A stretch of DNA of 51,201 nucleotides from Providencia burhodogranariea DSM 19968. GTDB lineage: Bacteria; Pseudomonadota; Gammaproteobacteria; Enterobacterales; Enterobacteriaceae. The DNA lies in contig NZ_KB233222.1 of the NCBI RefSeq assembly GCF_000314855.2, positions 381,495-432,695 on the forward strand, in the 5' to 3' direction. Below, piece after piece: positions 2,120 through 51,201 of the stretch (positions within the stretch are counted from its first letter, which is position 1; each line of letters begins with the position of its first letter). Both the position numbers and the translations under genes were made by a program. A model generated the notes under the pieces. It was not told the DNA's origin. It saw nothing but the letters and a program-made list of their open reading frames with translations, and did not search any database.

Positions 2120-2745
2120 ATCGATTTCCTATTTTTCTGTTGTGCCAGCGTCATATACCTTTTGTGCAGTTTGGCTACTTTATCAGAAATGTTCAATTCA
2201 CCATTATGGTTTGTAATCACATCATCAGCGTATGCTAAACGATGTTCTCTACTCGATTGCGCTTTTAAAATATTAGCAACCTGTTCTTCATTGACATTGT
2301 CCCTGTGCACTGTACGTGAAATTTGTTCTTCTGGTGTGACATCAATAACAAGCACACGGTCAGCTAAATGGGATAAATTGTTCTCAAATAGTAATGGGAC
2401 AATCCATAAAACATAAGGAGTATTAGCTTGTTGTAGTTGCTGCTGGGTTTTCTGATGAATAAGAGGGTGAAGCAAGGCATTTAGCCACACTTTTTCTGTT
2501 GTATCAGAAAAAATAATATCCCTAAGGTGTTGTCGATTGAGTGAACCATCTGAGTGAATTATATTTGTACCATAACGATTCAAGATAGCATTAAGAGCAG
2601 CTGAGCCCGGTTCAACCACTTGCCTAGCGATAACGTCAGCATCGACAAGTGGTATCCCGAGTTTTGCAAATTCATTGGCAACTGTTGTTTTTCCGCTACC
2701 GATACCACCTGTTAGAGCGACAATATAAGCCATATTTGTATTCAT
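2116..2745 (-). CDS. coaE: Dephospho-CoA kinase
   Basis: Catalyses the last step of coenzyme A synthesis, ATP-dependent phosphorylation of the 3'-hydroxyl of dephospho-CoA, in the cytosol. The 209-residue protein has the P-loop GGIGSGKT near residue 14 and the [13 protein letters not shown] substrate-binding block that follows. Length matches the family (206 in E. coli). It is the first gene of coaE-zapD-yacG. In E. coli guaC lies upstream; here the 288 bp up to hofC contain no recognisable gene and no clear promoter. Confidence 0.97.
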
Positions 2746-3033
2746 GCATGTTAAAAGACTAATAGGTTACACCGATTTTCTCCATTTGTCTTTATCCATA
2801 ATTCTATACATATTATAGGTTTATAAATGCCTTAATCATAAGAAGGTCCTATATTGATAAAAAGTAAAACCTTGTCGATTGCCTAAATAAGAAAGCTTAC
2901 TATTTGATTTATCTGGTTATCTATAAGTATTGGCCTTATTGTATACGATTAACTTTATTTGCCATTGAAAAACATCTTTAATTATTTTGTATTTCTATCA
3001 TAAATAAAGAAAATGCCATCATTATAAAATTAA

Positions 3034-4221
3034 TTAAACACCAGTTATGACGCTACCTAAATTAAATATAGGGAGGTACATAGCCAACATAAGAATTCCA
3101 ACTAAACAAGCCATTAGAAGCAGTAATATAGGCTCTAGGTTTTTAAGAGATTTTTCAATTAAAGTAGTATATTGAGTTGATAAATAATTAAATAAATATT
3201 GTACAAAATGAGCTAACTGACCTGATTCTTCAGCTATTGCAAGCAATTGAGGAACAATGCTTGGAAAAAGATATTTATGTTGCACAGCATTTGATAGTGA
3301 CTCACCTTTTACAACTGATTGATATACTTCTAAACTTTCTTTTTTAAATTTAAGATTATGGATTGCTTCAGTGGTACATTTTAAACATTCAAGCAACGGC
3401 AAGCCGGCTTGCAACGTAGAAGAGAGTGTTAAAAAATAGATATTAATATTTTTGAATTTAATTAATTTTTTTAGTAAAGGAACTTTTAATGTTAAATCTA
3501 TTAATAAATTGATATGTTGACCTATTAATTTGTAAATTAATAATACTAAAGTAACTATAGATAATAATAAATGGGCTAAGTATTCAATAATAAAATCTGA
3601 AATGTTAATCAGAATTTTAGTTACTATAGGTAAATCATGTTTGAAACTTTGATAGATGGTTTTAAATTCAGGTAATACATAAACTAACATGATGAAAGTT
3701 AATATAAATGAGAATGAAATTAATGTTACTGGGTATCGTAATGATTGGTTTATTTTTTGTTTTATTTTTAAATTATACTCTAGCATATCAGCAATGATAT
3801 AAAAGTTTTCGTTATATTTCCCTGTTTTTTCTGAAACTTTAATGAGATTGATAATAGAATGACTAAAAATTATTGGATACTTTTTCAAGCTATCCGATAG
3901 GCTATTTCCTTTTTTAATATCCTGAATAGCTAATGTAATAATTTTTTTCCAAAATGGCAGTCGACAATTTTTGTTAAGGATAGTTAGGCTTTGAAGTAAA
4001 TTTATTCCTGATGAGACTAATGTACTAAGCTGATGGAAAAAGTGAATTCGGTAATTTAAATTATTAGCATCTAAAATAAATATAGCTATTAATGTTATTT
4101 TAATGGGGGTTTGGTTAAGCTCTAGAACATCAAAAAATGCCATTTTTTTGTTTTTAGATACAATTATATCTTTAATAATAACACTATCATTAGTTAATGC
4201 TGTGTATGAATAAATAAACAT
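3034..4221 (-). CDS. hofC: Type IV pilus inner-membrane platform protein HofC (PilC/GspF family)
   Basis: The 395-residue protein belongs to the PilC/GspF family that anchors the assembly ATPase at the inner membrane. Two repeated T2SF-type cytoplasmic domains are visible (about residues 60-180 and 265-370). Each is followed by strongly hydrophobic segments, for example around LISFSFILTFIMLVYVLP and at the C terminus (LLLLMACLVGILMLAMYLP). Its start shares one base with the hofB stop (TAATG), so translation is probably coupled. Base composition is conspicuously more AT-rich than neighbouring housekeeping genes, with many AAA, TTA and ATT codons. The frame is intact. The match to E. coli HofC (400 aa) is by family and position. 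Confidence 0.9.
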   Translation of the reverse strand: MFIYSYTALTNDSVIIKDIIVSKNKKMAFFDVLELNQTPIKITLIAIFILDANNLNYRIHFFHQLSTLVSSGINLLQSLTILNKNCRLPFWKKIITLAIQDIKKGNSLSDSLKKYPIIFSHSIINLIKVSEKTGKYNENFYIIADMLEYNLKIKQKINQSLRYPVTLISFSFILTFIMLVYVLPEFKTIYQSFKHDLPIVTKILINISDFIIEYLAHLLLSIVTLVLLIYKLIGQHINLLIDLTLKVPLLKKLIKFKNINIYFLTLSSTLQAGLPLLECLKCTTEAIHNLKFKKESLEVYQSVVKGESLSNAVQHKYLFPSIVPQLLAIAEESGQLAHFVQYLFNYLSTQYTTLIEKSLKNLEPILLLLMACLVGILMLAMYLPIFNLGSVITGV

Positions 4222-10003: not shown

Positions 10004-12670
10004 ATGTCAGATATGTTGAAAAATGACGTGGATCCGATTGAAACTCGCGACTGGCTACAGGCGATTGAATCGGTCATCCGTGAAGAAGGTGTTGATCGTG
10101 CTCAGTTCATTATCGAACAAGTATTGAATGAAGCGCGTAAAGGCGGTCTAAATATTGCCGCTGGTGCATCTGGTAGTCCTGATTATATCAACACTATTGC
10201 TGTTGAAGATGAGCCTGCATACCCTGGTAACATGGATTTGGAGCGCCGTATTCGCTCCGCAATTCGTTGGAACGCAGTGATGACTGTACTGCGCGCTTCT
10301 AAAAAAGATTTAGAGCTGGGTGGCCACATGGCATCATTCCAGTCTTCTGCAACTTTATATGAAGTTTGTTTTAACCATTTCTTCCGCGCGCAAAATAATA
10401 AAGATGGTGGGGACCTTGTTTACTTCCAAGGCCATATCTCCCCAGGTATTTATGCACGTGCCTTCCTTGAAGGTCGTCTGACTGAAGAGCAGATGAATAA
10501 CTTCCGTCAAGAAATTGGTGGTAAAGGTTTATCTTCATACCCGCACCCTAAACTAATGCCTGATTTCTGGCAGTTCCCGACAGTATCAATGGGGCTAGGA
10601 CCATTAAGTGCTATCTATCAAGCTAAATTCCTTAAATATCTTGAGCATCGTGGCTTGAAAGATACTTCAGGACAAACCGTTTATGCATTTTTAGGTGACG
10701 GTGAAATGGATGAGCCAGAATCAAAAGGTGCAATTACAATTGCAACTCGCGATAAGCTCGACAACCTAGTATTCGTTGTTAACTGTAACTTGCAGCGTCT
10801 TGATGGCCCAGTTACTGGTAACGGCAAAATTGTTAACGAGCTAGAAGGCATCTTTAGTGGTGCTGGCTGGCAAGTAATTAAAGTGATGTGGGGCGATCGT
10901 TGGGATGCTCTGCTGCGTAAAGATACAAGCGGCAAATTGATCCAGCTGATGAATGAAACTCTCGATGGTGACTATCAGACATTTAAATCTCGTGATGGCG
11001 CTTATGTTCGTGAACACTTCTTCAATCGTTACCCAGAAACAGCTGCATTAGTTAAAGATATGACTGATGATGAAATTTGGGCGTTGAACCGTGGCGGTCA
11101 TGATCCGAAGAAAGTCTATGCAGCATTCAAAAAAGCAGCTGATACTCAAGGCAAACCAACAGTTATCCTAGCTCAAACCGTAAAAGGTTATGGTATGGGT
11201 GAAACTGCTGAAGGTAAAAACATTGCTCACCAAGTGAAAAAAATGAATATGGACGGTGTTCGTCACTTCCGTGATCAATTCAATGTGCCAGTTGCTGATG
11301 ATCAAATTGAAAAACTGCCATTTATCACTTTTGAAAAAGATTCAGAAGAGTACAAATACCTGCATGCGCGTCGTCAAGATTTAGGTGGCTACCTTCCTGC
11401 TCGTCGTACTCACTTTGACGAAAAACTGGAAATCCCAGCATTAGGTGATTTCAGTCAATTGCTTGAAGAACAATCTAAAGAAATTTCAACAACCATCGCA
11501 TTTGTTCGCGCATTAAATGTAATGTTGAAAAATAAATCGATCAAAGATCGTTTAGTACCAATTATTGCTGATGAAGCACGTACTTTTGGTATGGAAGGTT
11601 TATTCCGTCAAATTGGTATTTACAGTTCTAACGGTCAAAAATATACCCCACAGGATCGTGAGCAAGTTGCTTACTACAAAGAAGACTCTAAAGGTCAAAT
11701 CCTGCAAGAAGGTATTAACGAGTTGGGCGCGGGTGCATCATGGTTAGCTGCGGCAACCTCTTATAGCACTAACAACCTGCCAATGATCCCATTCTATATC
11801 TATTATTCAATGTTCGGTTTCCAACGCATTGGTGATTTATTATGGGCAGCAGGTGACCAACAAGCTCGTGGGTTCCTGATTGGTGGTACTTCAGGCCGTA
11901 CAACCTTAAATGGTGAAGGCTTACAACATGAAGATGGCCATAGCCATATTCAGTCACTGACAATTCCTAACTGTATCTCTTATGACCCAGCTTATGCTTA
12001 TGAAGTTGCTGTTATCATGCAAGATGGTTTGGATCGTATGTATGGTGATAAACAAGAGAACGTGTATTACTACATCACGACTCTGAATGAAAACTATCAC
12101 ATGCATGCAATGCCTGAAGGTGTTGAAGAAGGTATCCGTAAAGGTATCTATAAACTAGCTTCAATCGAAGGTAGCAAAGGTAAAGTTCAACTGTTAGGTT
12201 CAGGTTCTATGATGCGTCATGTTCGTGAAGCTGCTGATGTACTGTCTACTGAATATGGTATTGGCTCTGATATTTATAGCGTAACTTCATTCACTGAATT
12301 GGCTCGTGATGGTCAAGACTGTGAGCGTTGGAATATGCTGCATCCATCTGAAGCACCACGTGTGCCATATGTTGCTCAAGTTATGAATGATGCACCAGCT
12401 GTAGCATCAACTGACTATATGAAACTGTTTGCAGAACAAATTCGTACTTTCGTACCAGCAAGTGACTATCGCGTATTAGGTACAGATGGTTTCGGCCGTT
12501 CTGACAGTCGTGAAAACCTGCGTCACCACTTCGAAGTGGATACATCTTATGTGATCGTTGCGGCGCTGGGTGAATTGGCTAAACGTGGTGAGATTGATGT
12601 TAAGGTCGTTGAAGAAGCGATTAAAAAATACAACATCAATCCAGAAAAAGTTAACCCACGTCTGGCATAA
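10004..12670 (+). CDS. aceE: Pyruvate dehydrogenase E1 component, homodimeric type
   Basis: Decarboxylates pyruvate with thiamine diphosphate and transfers the acetyl group to the lipoyl arms of AceF. The 888-residue protein matches the gammaproteobacterial homodimeric E1 (887 in E. coli). The thiamine-diphosphate motif is seen as GDGEMDEPES with the downstream NCNLQRLDGPV, and further E1 signatures are QEGINELGAGASW and GEGLQHEDGHSH. The last contains a conserved active-site His pair. A TAAGGA sequence is 7-8 bases upstream of the ATG. aceF starts 13 bp after the stop, so the two are co-transcribed from the PdhR-controlled promoter and possibly from an internal one. Confidence 0.98.
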   Translation: MSDMLKNDVDPIETRDWLQAIESVIREEGVDRAQFIIEQVLNEARKGGLNIAAGASGSPDYINTIAVEDEPAYPGNMDLERRIRSAIRWNAVMTVLRASKKDLELGGHMASFQSSATLYEVCFNHFFRAQNNKDGGDLVYFQGHISPGIYARAFLEGRLTEEQMNNFRQEIGGKGLSSYPHPKLMPDFWQFPTVSMGLGPLSAIYQAKFLKYLEHRGLKDTSGQTVYAFLGDGEMDEPESKGAITIATRDKLDNLVFVVNCNLQRLDGPVTGNGKIVNELEGIFSGAGWQVIKVMWGDRWDALLRKDTSGKLIQLMNETLDGDYQTFKSRDGAYVREHFFNRYPETAALVKDMTDDEIWALNRGGHDPKKVYAAFKKAADTQGKPTVILAQTVKGYGMGETAEGKNIAHQVKKMNMDGVRHFRDQFNVPVADDQIEKLPFITFEKDSEEYKYLHARRQDLGGYLPARRTHFDEKLEIPALGDFSQLLEEQSKEISTTIAFVRALNVMLKNKSIKDRLVPIIADEARTFGMEGLFRQIGIYSSNGQKYTPQDREQVAYYKEDSKGQILQEGINELGAGASWLAAATSYSTNNLPMIPFYIYYSMFGFQRIGDLLWAAGDQQARGFLIGGTSGRTTLNGEGLQHEDGHSHIQSLTIPNCISYDPAYAYEVAVIMQDGLDRMYGDKQENVYYYITTLNENYHMHAMPEGVEEGIRKGIYKLASIEGSKGKVQLLGSGSMMRHVREAADVLSTEYGIGSDIYSVTSFTELARDGQDCERWNMLHPSEAPRVPYVAQVMNDAPAVASTDYMKLFAEQIRTFVPASDYRVLGTDGFGRSDSRENLRHHFEVDTSYVIVAALGELAKRGEIDVKVVEEAIKKYNINPEKVNPRLA

Positions 12671-12683
12671 GAGGTAATAATCA

Positions 12684-14540
12684 ATGTCTATTGAAATCCA
12701 AGTACCTGATATCGGTGCTGATGAAGTTGAAGTCACCGAAGTTATGGTTAAAGTTGGTGATAAAGTAGAAGCTGAACAATCACTGATCACTGTTGAAGGT
12801 GATAAAGCTTCTATGGAAGTCCCATCACCACAAGCTGGTGTGGTTAAAGAAATTAAAATTGCGGTTGGCGATAAAGTCACAACTGGTAAATTAATCATGG
12901 TATTTGAATCAGCAGAAGGCGCAGCTCCGGCTGCGCCAGCTGAGGCTCCAGCACAAGCTGCTGCTGCACCTGTAGCTTCTGCTCTTAAAGAAGTTGCTGT
13001 ACCTGATATCGGTGGCGATGAAGTTGAAGTTACTGAAATTATGGTTAAAGTCGGTGATTCAGTATCAGAAGAACAATCACTGATCACTGTTGAAGGCGAT
13101 AAAGCTTCAATGGAAGTACCAGCGCCATTTGCAGGCACAGTCAAAGAAATCAAAATTGTAGCGGGCGATAAAGTAAAAACTGGCTCACTGATTATGGTCT
13201 TTGAAATTGCAGGTGCAGCTCCAGCGGCCGCGCCAGCAGCAGCTGCAACACCAGCTCCAACGGCTTCTGCTATTAAAGATGTTAACGTGCCAGATATTGG
13301 CGGTGATGAAGTTGAAGTCACTGAAGTCATGGTTAAGGTTGGCGACAGCATTTCTGCTGAGCAATCAATCATTACTGTTGAAGGTGATAAAGCTTCAATG
13401 GAAGTCCCTGCACCATTTGCTGGTACAGTTAAAGAGATTAAAATTGCAGCGGGCGATAAAGTTAAAACTGGTTCGCTTATCATGACCTTTGAAGTTGCAG
13501 GTGCAGCACCAACTGCTCCAGCAGCATCAGTACCAGCTGCGCCAGCCGCTTCGACATCTGCACCAGCTCCTTCAGCACCTGCAAAAGCAACTGAGAGCAA
13601 AAATGAATTTGTTGAAAATGACGCCTATATTCACGCAACACCAGTTATTCGCCGTTTAGCTCGCGAATTTGGTGTTAATCTTGCTAAAGTCAAAGGTACT
13701 GGCCGCAAAGGTCGTATTTTACGTGAAGACGTTCAGTCTTACGTTAAAGATGCGATTAAACGTGCGGAAGCACCAGCAGCAGCTGGTGGCGGCTTACCAG
13801 GCATGTTGCCATGGCCTAAAGTCGATTACAGCAAATTCGGTGAAGTTGAAGAAGTTGAACTGGGACGCATTCAGAAGATTTCTGGTGCTAACCTTAGCCG
13901 TAACTGGGTAATGATCCCACATGTTACCTTGATGGAAGATGTTGATACCACTGAAGTTGAAGAGTTCCGTAAACAACAGAACAAAGAAGCTGAGAAAAAA
14001 CAGCTTGGTGTCAAAATTACACCATTAGTCTTTATCATGAAAGCTGTCGCACGTGCGCTAGAAGAAATGCCTCGCTTCAATAGCTCTATTTCTGAAGATG
14101 CTCAACGCTTGTTCTTAAAGAAATATATCAACATCGGTATTGCCGTTGATACACCGAATGGCCTTGTTGTTCCAGTTTTCAAAGATGTGAACAAAAAAGG
14201 TATCATGGAGCTTTCTCGTGAACTGATGGAAGTTTCTAAGAAAGCGCGTGCAGGTAAATTAACTGCTTCTGATATGCAAGGCGGCTGTTTCACAATTTCT
14301 AGCCTTGGTGGTATCGGAACTACCGGTTTTGCACCGATTGTAAATGCGCCAGAAGTAGCAATTATGGGTCTATCTCGCTCTTCCATGAAACCAGTATGGA
14401 ATGGCAGTGAATTCGTACCTCGCCTAATTCTGCCAATGTCTCTTTCGTTTGATCACCGTGTGATTGACGGCGCCGATGGTGCTCGCTTCATCACCTTAGT
14501 AGGTCAATTGATGAGCGATATTCGCCGACTGGTGATGTAA
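12684..14540 (+). CDS. aceF: Dihydrolipoyllysine acetyltransferase, pyruvate dehydrogenase E2
   Basis: Forms the 24-mer core of the complex and transfers acetyl groups from lipoyl arms to CoA. Domain order in the 618 residues: three lipoyl domains with GDKASMEVP sites at Lys41, Lys140 and Lys236, each followed by an Ala/Pro-rich flexible linker. Then comes the peripheral subunit-binding domain ([15 protein letters not shown], about 314-350) and the catalytic domain ending in [15 protein letters not shown], with His591 and Asp595 as active-site residues. Lipoyl domains 2 and 3 are near-identical even at the DNA level. A strong terminator follows. Confidence 0.98.
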
Positions 14541-48609: not shown

Positions 48610-48624
48610 TTTAGATGTGCTTCA

Positions 48625-48655
48625 AATGCCCAGCTTAGTCTGGGCATTGTTTTAT
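48625..48655 (+). terminator. Rho-independent terminator after lysS
   Basis: Perfect 9-bp stem AATGCCCAG / CTGGGCATT, 6-base loop, then GTTTTAT. It starts 16 bp past the lysS stop. Confidence 0.88.
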
Positions 48656-49370
48656 ATCGATAATGAGCTTTATCGATAATATCCTAATTAATATAACAAA
48701 TCTTTGTTAAGTTATTACTTAAATAAAACTAGTTAGATAAAGTTCTTATAAATACTCATCAATACTCTAAATAATTCTATTTACATTAGTGGGAAAGGGA
48801 CGGTAGGAAAGAAAAGTATAGATAAAAAATGTGAATCGACTAGCTGAGTATAGTCAACAATCACGTAAGTAGAGGTATAAAGAGTATATAAGTGATGATT
48901 AACTGATAGTTGATATGAAAAATATACTAGTAACATTAGAACGTTAATATCCATATTATGGATAACTCGGTTCAGGTTTTTTAAAATAGATAAACAATAT
49001 AAATATATTTTTTGTTAAAAAATATTTCAAAACTAATATAATCGACTAAGAAAATAGCACAAATAAGTGTTATTAGATTGTAATGAAATAAGGCTTTAGA
49101 TTGGTAAACGTTCTAAATAAACATGTTAGGAGTTGACAGCTTTGCAGCCCTTATTAATTGCACTCATAAAGAGAGTGTCGATATATTGCTGAGATAAAAA
49201 CAATATGGCACGTCGGCTAATTAGTGTTAATATTAAATCAATTAACTTAAATTTATGAGATGACTCTATTTCTAGATTAGGGCTTATAGTAAATAGCTAA
49301 ATTTTAGCTTACACTGGGATCCTTGGGTATATTTATAATAGCAAAGAAAAAGTACTGTTAAGGTAACTAT
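48656..49370. other. Very AT-rich spacer upstream of the terminal operon
   Basis: About 715 bases with no gene. TATCGATAAT occurs twice as direct repeats (48655-48664 and 48671-48680, 16 bp apart), and TCGATATATT is at 49178-49187. Both resemble the high-affinity H-NS motif (TCGATAAATT type), and the DNA between is strongly AT-rich. TATAAT at 49334-49339 lies about 30 bp before the lipoprotein gene and could be its -10; the best -35 (TTACAC at 49309-49314) has a long 19-base spacer. Confidence 0.45.
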
Positions 49371-49925
49371 ATGTTTTCAAAAAATAATTTTATTACTGTG
49401 TCATTGCTTTTAGCTGGTACAGTCATTCTATCTGGTTGTTCTTTCGGTAATAATGCACGCACTACAGCACCAACAAGCAGCGAACCTGCGACTCAAACAT
49501 CACAAACGGATTATTCATATTCTGATTCACAAGCTGTTTTGAATTCTGCAACAAGTAACCGACCAACGGAAACAAGTAAACTAGCGACTGTTTCAAATGC
49601 TCAGATAATCACAGCAACGGAACAGGACTCATTGAATTCAAATGAATCTGATAAAGGGTCATTGCAATATTTAAACACCTGTATTAAAGAACTTAATGCA
49701 TTAAAATCGCTATCACCAACTGATTACAATCGTCTTGTAGGCTCTTTTAAAGAAGTTAGCGAAATAAATCAGCTTTATAAGCAAGTTGCATCGACGGCAA
49801 GCCCTGACACAATTGAACTGTTACAAATGGCGATAGAGTCTAAAACAAAAGTTCTTTGCGCTAAAGTTCGTTATAACTCAGTCTTATCTACCGAATCAAC
49901 ATTGGAAAAAATTAGTGGATTATGA
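49371..49925 (+). CDS. Predicted lipoprotein of unknown function
   Basis: A 184-residue protein I do not recognise. The N terminus MFSKNNFITVSLLLAG then TVILSGC is a lipoprotein signal peptide with lipobox LSGC (lipid on Cys23). Ser and Phe at +2 and +3 do not suggest the Asp +2 inner-membrane retention signal, so outer-membrane sorting is likely. Residues 25-95 are low-complexity, rich in Ser, Thr, Asn and Gln. Residues 98-184 look helical (LQYLNTCIKELNALKSL onward) with two Cys that could form a disulfide. AAGG precedes the ATG. The stop overlaps the next start (ATGA), implying coupled synthesis of a functional pair. Confidence 0.75.
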   Translation: MFSKNNFITVSLLLAGTVILSGCSFGNNARTTAPTSSEPATQTSQTDYSYSDSQAVLNSATSNRPTETSKLATVSNAQIITATEQDSLNSNESDKGSLQYLNTCIKELNALKSLSPTDYNRLVGSFKEVSEINQLYKQVASTASPDTIELLQMAIESKTKVLCAKVRYNSVLSTESTLEKISGL

Positions 49926-51201
49926 GAATTAACCTAAGGCTTTGTATATCTCTGGCACTTTTTTCGGCTGCTTTTAGTCAATTTGCTAAATCGGATAGCT
50001 TTAATAATGTCATTGATGACTTTGACAGTTACCTTAAACTCGAGCAAGAAGGTAAACTGCCTGAAAAACCATTGAATATTCAAGCTCAAGGTTATGATTC
50101 ATTATCATCTTTGCCGCTTGTTGCTGAGCCTAAAAAGCAACCGAGTTCTTCGCTAAAAACAAAAGGCTCGGTAAATAAGCCAGTTAAAACGAATACCACC
50201 GCGAAGGCTGTGGCTGCTCAACCGAAAAAAGAAGCAAAAGCTTCTTTATCGGAATGCCCAATACCAGAAATAAATATGGTAGAGCAGCCAACTGGCTCAG
50301 CACAGCAATCTTTACTATTATCATCGTACCCATATTTCTTTAACTCGAATCAGTGGCACCCTCAGTATTTATCTAAGGATTTTGCTAAGTATCAAGTTGT
50401 TTTAGATCCATTAGGGCTGTATTCCTCCAAGTTCTCGATGGCGGCATCGAGTGATAACTCAGCATATTTAGAGCAACTTGCGGATCTTTTAGGGCAACAA
50501 CAATCTACGCATCTATTTAAGTTTGGTGTTGCTCAAGGTACAGGGCAGTTGATTGCTTATCATCAATTATTGACGGATAGGCAATTAGTCGAAAAGTTAA
50601 TTGCACATAATAAAAGTGTGGCAGAACTTAGTCATACAATTGCAGAAAAACAATTCGAAATAGAACGAATCAATGCTGAATTAGCTTCGAATAAAAGTCA
50701 GATTGCTCTTTTACAAGAGCAATTAAAAGTAACTGATGACCAAGAAAGAATTACTTTACTCACCGATGAATTAACGTCAGTTAAAAATAATCTTGCACAA
50801 AAGCAAAATGATTTCGAGCAATTGACTTCACAGAATCAAAATGCTCAACAATTAATTAATACGCTCGAAGCCAAGCTCAGTGAAAGTGTTAGTGCTCAAT
50901 TATTAGCGGAAAAGCAGTTAGCTGAAAAAAATAAACAAGTTGAGGATGCTCAACAGCAAATTAATCAGCTGACCTCACAGCTTGCTCAGTTAGAAATGGA
51001 TTCTAGAGAACAAACTGAATTATTAGCTAAAACTAGGGACGAACAACTTAAATCAGTGAATGCAGATCTTGCACAACAGCAAGTATTGCTCAAACAGAAA
51101 GAAGCAGCATTGCAGTTAATCGAAAATGAAAGAGACGAAATTAAAGCTGAATTAGAGAAGCAACAAGATGTGGCTAAGGTTTTTGAAGCCGATTTGGAAG
51201 A
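49922..51201 (+). CDS. Secreted coiled-coil protein, C terminus outside the window
   Basis: An open frame from the ATG at 49922 through the window edge, at least 426 residues. It starts MRINLRLCISLALFSAAFSQ, a Sec signal peptide with no lipobox. A Lys/Ser/Ala-rich linker follows (about 70-110). A folded segment comes next (about 115-225, SYPYFFNSNQWHPQYL through FGVAQGTGQLIAYHQLL) that I cannot place in a family. From about residue 230 onward there is a long Gln/Glu/Lys/Leu heptad coiled coil. The overlap with the lipoprotein gene suggests an envelope-anchored complex. Possible fates include a C-terminal enzymatic or binding domain beyond the window; no function is assigned. Confidence 0.75.
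   Translation, partial: MRINLRLCISLALFSAAFSQFAKSDSFNNVIDDFDSYLKLEQEGKLPEKPLNIQAQGYDSLSSLPLVAEPKKQPSSSLKTKGSVNKPVKTNTTAKAVAAQPKKEAKASLSECPIPEINMVEQPTGSAQQSLLLSSYPYFFNSNQWHPQYLSKDFAKYQVVLDPLGLYSSKFSMAASSDNSAYLEQLADLLGQQQSTHLFKFGVAQGTGQLIAYHQLLTDRQLVEKLIAHNKSVAELSHTIAEKQFEIERINAELASNKSQIALLQEQLKVTDDQERITLLTDELTSVKNNLAQKQNDFEQLTSQNQNAQQLINTLEAKLSESVSAQLLAEKQLAEKNKQVEDAQQQINQLTSQLAQLEMDSREQTELLAKTRDEQLKSVNADLAQQQVLLKQKEAALQLIENERDEIKAELEKQQDVAKVFEADLE

Follow-up and report, generated by a model that had tools for sequence, protein, structure and literature searches.

A lipoprotein gene coupled to a long coiled-coil FKBP gene beside lysS in Providencia, and the linkage of its relatives to fimbrial and inverse autotransporter genes

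At the right-hand end of the window, by which we mean the whole 51,201-nucleotide stretch of Providencia burhodogranariea DNA analysed here (G000:C1:381495-432695), two overlapping genes follow the terminator of lysS. The first, which we call A, encodes a lipobox protein with a low-complexity linker, and the start codon of the second, B, lies within its stop codon (ATGA, at 49922). B encodes an exported coiled-coil protein whose ORF is still open at the end of the window (Table 1), and we read it onwards in a 17.5-kb extension to the right (L002). The initial annotation had described this arrangement and an AT-rich spacer after the lysS terminator, and both hold: the spacer is 72.5% AT compared with 61.0% for the whole window, a level reached by 2% of equal-sized windows. 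The H-NS-like motifs that it had also placed in the spacer are not above chance. Allowing at most one mismatch to a 10-base consensus, the window holds 9 matches where 8.25 are expected, and one of the 9 falls in the spacer. Promoter-like sites between 48590 and 49420 number 11 against an expected 5.1 (sd 1.9) and none of them is favoured; the promoter of A presumably lies inside the spacer.

Table 1 Features of the A-B locus, in window coordinates
Feature	Position	Strand	Remarks
Hairpin of the lysS terminator, bordering the locus upstream	48625..48648	+	9-pair stem, T-rich tail
AT-rich spacer 5' of A	48610..49370	.	72.5% AT
Gene A, lipoprotein of 184 aa	49371..49925	+	lipobox LSGC, Cys23, Ser at +2; homologues in 23/23 same-genus relatives
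A core domain, residues ~92-184	49644..49922	+	predicted three-helix bundle, Cys104 and Cys163
Gene B, start; continues to L002:4546	49922..51201	+	exported coiled coil, C-terminal FKBP_C
B mature N-terminal segment (contains FNNVIDDFDSYL)	49991..50047	+	proposed docking element for A
B variable low-complexity Lys/Pro/Ser/Thr linker, residues ~66-130	50117..50311	+	
B conserved N-terminal segment (Providencia), residues ~133-230	50318..50611	+	no credible Pfam match
B long coiled coil, first part	50615..51199	+	Pro/Gly-free 226-426, heptad power, weak coiled-coil profile matches

In the extension, B ends in an FKBP_C domain, and the next gene, which is convergent, encodes a regulator of the AraC type carrying ExsA_N (93.1 bits). 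A and B both have homologues in all 23 other genomes of the genus that we sampled, and all 24 Providencia genomes read share the ATGA junction. Among the 23 flanks fetched, lysS lies 5' of the pair in 22 and the ExsA-type regulator 3' of it in 22; the exceptions are G020 for lysS and G019 for the regulator, where the gene may sit beyond the 1.5 kb read. Proteus mirabilis (L076) has a recognisable version of the locus as well, with lysS, A, B and the regulator all present, an opposite-strand ORF that by eye is reductase-like between lysS and A, and an ExsD-like gene between B and the ExsA-type regulator (11925-12782, 12852-13685). The co-occurrence of the two genes beside lysS, which the initial annotation had proposed to check in Morganellaceae, is seen in these flanks, and the pair itself is spread more widely.

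The lipobox of A (...VILSGC) leads into a linker rich in T/S/Q/N. Across 12 Providencia rows this linker is variable and the last 84 residues are the best conserved part of the protein. The lipobox Cys, Cys104 and Cys163 are invariant in a 39-row alignment of A, and the pair of core cysteines is also found in all 46 rows of a second set; the two may be joined by a disulfide. Lipoproteins are sorted to the outer membrane when the lipobox Cys is not followed by Asp at +2. None of the 46 A rows has Asp at this position (the protein of the window reads LSGC-S), and A is expected from its lipobox and +2 residue to be an outer-membrane lipoprotein.

AlphaFold2 predicts a three-helix bundle for residues 92-182 of A with moderate confidence (mean pLDDT 49.8; 62-72 in blocks of residues 101-170 and at most 51 elsewhere). 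A fold look-up with this model returns generic helical bundles, none of them well above the rest, a result that excludes no family. No credible Pfam family was found for A with either 17 or 39 members: among the 39, DUF6491 matched 3 and three other names matched one each, all weakly. NCBIfam names among the 17 members (TssJ in 2; LpoB, Lpp/OprI and four others in one each) are weak and disagree with each other, so that they probably reflect lipoprotein signal peptides.

The frame of B comprises 1209 codons (1211 from stop to stop), of which about 454 in the middle (L002 ~2196-3556) are masked in this genome and the remainder was read. Residues 226-426 contain no Pro or Gly, and the region gives weak matches to coiled-coil profiles. 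Heptad periodicity in the two readable halves is 6.2 and 7.1 against a shuffle mean of 2.5, with maxima over 500 shuffles of 7.2 and 9.5 that exceed both values. In five unmasked relatives the coil, measured by subtraction, covers about 511-1501 residues, which would be about 76-223 nm as one straight helix at the usual rise per residue. The periplasm is about 20-30 nm wide. The coil would be several times this width and so could not stand straight across it, and we reject the straight periplasm-spanning filament of the initial annotation. Open frames of B in the 24 Providencia genomes, where two of the relatives' loci also contain masked bases, range from 1060 to 1905 codons except for four shorter ones (853, 344, 170 and 149 codons), two of which run into a contig end. 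A different kind of spacer is seen at L066:5461-7920, a B in which a long repeat of the PEKAEPVKPAAQQ type occupies the N-terminal half in place of the coil. Spacers of the TonB type resemble this repeat, and the substitution suggests that the length of the spacer may outweigh the sequence of the coil.

The C-terminus of B matches FKBP_C (PF00254) at 21.5 bits, narrowly above the curated cut-off of 21.1, and its matches in the PDB are FKBP structures including FkpA and Mip, down to 3.3e-9. Two distant B proteins (L138 and L063) reach 41.8 and 41.2 bits with FKBP_C and both also carry FKBP_N, for which the readable C-terminal part of the window's B gave no match at E <= 1. We examined the residues that we take, after the numbering and roles in FKBP12, to form the active site. 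Compared with three FkpA-type rows, Tyr26, Phe36, Asp37, Ile56 and Trp59 are replaced and Tyr82 is kept in 24 of 24 B rows, a count that leaves out L153 (not an FKBP), a duplicate P. mirabilis row and the FkpA-like row of L064. With five of six such residues replaced, the domain probably binds rather than catalyses, and a catalytic FKBP in B is unlikely. The initial annotation would have counted it against its own view if B belonged to a well-known family of established function, for example of the Mip/FKBP type; the domain places it there, although the active-site residues are replaced.

Upstream of the coil, residues ~133-230 have no credible Pfam match. We considered and rejected the possibility that this conserved segment of the Providencia proteins is a relocated part of the FKBP, for which a profile comparison with A4 gives a probability of 2%. 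A structural model of the N-terminal domain has very low confidence (mean pLDDT 41) and places a helix at 24-42. At L064:5283-6461, a 392-residue FkpA-like protein with some active-site residues changed is encoded directly before a second FkpA-like gene.

Like members of the FkpA/Mip family, B is exported and has a helical N-terminal part and a C-terminal FKBP_C, and distant B proteins keep FKBP_N. It departs from them by hundreds to about 1500 added coil residues, by its partner lipoprotein, by its replaced active site and, in the window, by having no reported FKBP_N. One reading of these likenesses is that B is a dedicated chaperone or isomerase of the Mip/FkpA type, whose coil provides multivalency and whose N-terminus is no docking site, with A as its anchor or co-chaperone. 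The FkpA-like pairing of FKBP_N and FKBP_C in the two distant members, the structural matches to FkpA and Mip, and the position of B genes amid fimbrial genes (see below) are consistent with it. We nevertheless hold it to be unlikely, as the active-site residues are replaced in every one of the 24 B rows and as it leaves unexplained the A genes that stand beside inverse autotransporters where no B is found.

We searched two samples of 295 genomes each, both of which include Providencia. Profile A1 finds A in 12 genomes of the order sample and in 82 of the sample of the GTDB family Enterobacteriaceae, in 48 of its 154 genera. We then read the neighbours of A and B in 110 stretches. Since these were chosen for their A or B hits and include related genomes, the counts are neither general frequencies nor numbers of independent events. 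Among 104 A copies, B (here any FKBP-profile match at E <= 1e-4) follows 43, directly in 40 and behind a split frame in 3. An inverse autotransporter (IAT) lies downstream of 19, directly for 17 and as the second ORF for 2 (one behind a split frame, one behind another A), and is adjacent in another orientation to 5 more, so that 24 copies are at or one gene from an IAT. A Sel1-repeat protein is downstream of 2 copies, and 35 have neither partner, some of them because a contig end cuts the stretch (e.g. L131, L137 and L139, all of which start like B). Three stretches fetched for A (L164, L225, L226) yielded no A frame from the ORF caller and stand outside the 104; the A of L260 was missed there and found separately.

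Seen from the side of B, the 295 genomes contain 49 genes scoring at least 210 bits; the next best reaches 171 bits, and the remaining matches score lower, mostly in frames of FkpA size. A coordinate test places A directly upstream of 39 of the 49. Ten remain: L251 and L252 are near contig ends, L253, L256 and L258 are beside an usher, L254, L255 and L257 are beside none of the features sought, L209 (G462) is a short fragment that follows a split frame and has A upstream, and L065 is a 6.2-kb stretch with no A or usher match. The initial annotation had also counted homologues lacking the lipoprotein as evidence against its view, and this is partly borne out, with 10 of the 49 B genes having no A directly upstream by the coordinate test.

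The relatives of both genes are linked to adhesins. Of 33 strong B ORFs, 15 share their stretch with a recognised usher gene, as against 0 of 21 IAT ORFs, with stretches of unmatched length, and only 11 of the 43 A-B pairs. In the annotation of plasmids from Serratia entomophila, Escherichia albertii and E. coli, B is called an FKBP-type isomerase and lies amid fimbrial genes; A, a 'hypothetical protein', is just upstream in the first, two genes downstream in the second, and was not found nearby in the third. Part of the B genes, often with A, sit in or beside chaperone-usher fimbrial operons, although A and B are not the usual subunit, chaperone or usher, and the Providencia locus has no such neighbours. 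Other A relatives lie directly upstream of inverse autotransporters of the intimin/invasin type (PF11924). The IAT_beta domain was confirmed by Pfam in three A-adjacent neighbours, and with 126 match rows in 109 genomes at E <= 1e-40, or about one IAT per genome, adjacency to A should rarely arise by chance. From this linkage we suggest a role for the pair in placing or building surface structures.

The same neighbours raise the alternative that B itself is surface-exposed or secreted, as a fibrous adhesin or spacer of variable length outside the cell, with A as its tether or export helper. A coil of up to about 1500 residues whose length varies within one genus would suit such a role, as would the IAT adhesins adjoining A relatives. 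Against this, no translocator gene is seen in the two-gene unit, and B relatives sit amid fimbrial genes that have subunits of their own. FkpA, the nearest enzyme, is periplasmic. We consider an external B rather improbable.

In a tree of A built from 46 rows and only 84 columns, with many forks left open, one clade unites 18 IAT-linked rows and one other. Nested with this clade are the B-linked A proteins of L215, L235 and L210, and the Providencia and Proteus proteins lie one step further out. The two kinds of partner share a feature at their mature N-termini, where a short amphipathic segment precedes a low-complexity linker in most B proteins seen. Across 12 Providencia rows, F27-L38 is invariant at 10 of its 12 positions, although the opening residues of the signal peptide are likewise conserved. 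Of 18 A-linked IATs, 11 carry, immediately behind their signal peptide, M..T..GL..L[MVI], a pattern composed after inspection of these very proteins, which include near copies (L135/L204, L168/L218, L234/L237); the other 7 have different short segments. The motif is found in 0 of 30 IATs without A, a few of which could be read over little of their N-terminus; by eye, many of the 30 have a LysM-like N-terminal region. These counts exclude the IAT of L077, which starts outside the stretch. Six of the seven A-linked IATs without the motif have their A in the tree, five of them in two early side branches (L221, L168; L161, L259, L244), with the A of the sixth, L078, outside these branches.

A moment scan of mature N-termini found a qualifying segment in 27 of 32 B proteins with A, in all 18 IATs with A and in both B proteins with a Sel1 protein. 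The 5 of 32 that lack one do so partly because of a misplaced cleavage site. Among B proteins without A, 2 of 5 qualified, both weakly (0.29 and 0.09), with a cleavage guess that may skip residues. The scan was run on B proteins and A-linked IATs and dropped B proteins with a called start inside the protein (e.g. L067, L136, L144, L147). Shared ancestry alone could account for the common N-termini of the A-linked IATs, and the B of one E. coli plasmid, which has the N-terminal segment but no A nearby, counts against a docking role for it.

A precedent for such docking is OutS. This small outer-membrane lipoprotein is a helical bundle with one Cys pair (the Cys61-Cys115 disulfide), and it renders an 18-residue segment of its partner, a secretin, helical (PMC3276575). 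On this precedent and on the N-terminal segments of the B and IAT partners, we propose that A may be pilotin-like, its partners likewise offering a short segment that could become a helix. The likeness would be one of design, as we found no sequence relationship between A and OutS/GspS: PF16549 is absent among the Pfam matches of 39 A members at E <= 0.01, and the OutS structure 3utk matches the A profile at positions 8-47 only, the end of the signal peptide, with an E of 0.26. We make no claim that A belongs to a pilotin family, and the partner that it would hold by the N-terminus is B or an IAT, not a secretin.

We favour, with somewhat less than even confidence, the view that A and B constitute an accessory module of the outer envelope, in which a pilotin-like docking lipoprotein works with a long, probably non-catalytic FKBP accessory of adhesin assembly. 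A would end up in the inner leaflet of the outer membrane, where its Cys-stapled helical domain could capture a short amphipathic segment at the N-terminus of a partner, as gene linkage and the N-terminal patterns suggest. Here the partner would be B, held by A at the outer membrane, with its long coil acting as a spacer that extends its reach. The FKBP domain, having lost most of the prolyl-isomerase active site, may bind a client without isomerising it, the likeliest client being a subunit of a fimbria or of another adhesin in transit to the surface. In another branch of the family, A may serve the inverse autotransporter in the same manner. Weighing against this view are the 35 of 104 A copies with neither partner, the low number of A-B pairs with an usher (11 of 43), the want of usher, PapD-type chaperone and IAT matches in the window and its extension, and the lack of sequence similarity to OutS beyond the signal-peptide end. 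A broader proposal, which we put forward as possible but doubtful, is that A founds a class of 'adhesin pilotins': an outer-membrane lipoprotein fold, stapled by cysteines, to which the short N-terminal helices of otherwise unrelated surface-system proteins (long coiled-coil FKBP accessories of fimbriae, inverse autotransporters) are bound, that switched its class of partner once and that kept a lineage-specific lock-and-key fit with the tails of its partners.

The regulator beside B bears on a further alternative, that the Morganellaceae pair has been orphaned and has taken on a new role under ExsA-type control (ExsA/ExsD in Proteus), for example as a partner of type III secretion or in another envelope process, and is no longer tied to fimbriae. 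The convergent ExsA_N regulator and its homologues in nearly all relatives, and the ExsD-like gene of P. mirabilis, fit this, as does the result that the window and its extension hold no match to an usher, a PapD-type chaperone or an IAT. They hold no Sel1 match and no further A or B either, and at E <= 1e-40 the genome as a whole has no IAT. A search for ExsD in Providencia gave no match in 31 relatives, but control genomes likewise gave none, so that the result speaks neither way. Yet a YscC-type secretin scores above the cut-off in 22 of 24 genomes of the genus, and the two exceptions, the window's genome (weaker secretin matches, the best at 133 bits versus a cut-off of 238) and its nearest relative G014, both keep the pair and the ExsA-type regulator. 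The regulator thus probably has a role beyond that secretion system, and we regard the orphan role as quite improbable.

In the literature, of which few subscription papers were covered, we found neither the A-B pair nor an A gene beside an IAT described. The C-terminal domain of B is of a known type, but we came across no publication on the lipoprotein family or on its use in common by fimbria-linked FKBP genes and inverse autotransporters. The original view of the pair as undescribed agrees with these searches except for the C-terminus of B. The pair is conserved and widely distributed, and we would describe it as a coiled-coil accessory with an FKBP tail and a lipoprotein of its own in preference to a periplasmic filament. 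Fimbriae and inverse autotransporters are not known to need such a lipoprotein partner for their assembly. If the proposed module is real, a family without a credible Pfam or NCBIfam model, present in 82 of 295 genomes and on E. coli plasmids, would join two major classes of adhesin. It would also offer a testable rule, that A recognises the extreme N-terminus of its mature partner, directly behind the signal peptide, and would account for the FKBP genes amid fimbrial genes that are named prolyl isomerases despite a worn active site.

Some arrangements differ from the common pairings. At L162:4876-14990 and L167:6029-14182 a large IAT gene is preceded by an A gene and faces a second, convergent A gene on its downstream side. 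In two stretches (L068:4719-6827 and L075), B is followed by a Sel1-repeat protein and no A gene was found; in the first of these the Sel1-repeat protein has a lipobox-like start, and an usher and fimbrial-type ORFs adjoin. On plasmids, 87 of the 108 records matched by IAT-type A are from Escherichia, and one E. coli plasmid (L267:11935-13495) carries two A copies one gene apart, with no IAT match in the 16.6 kb read.
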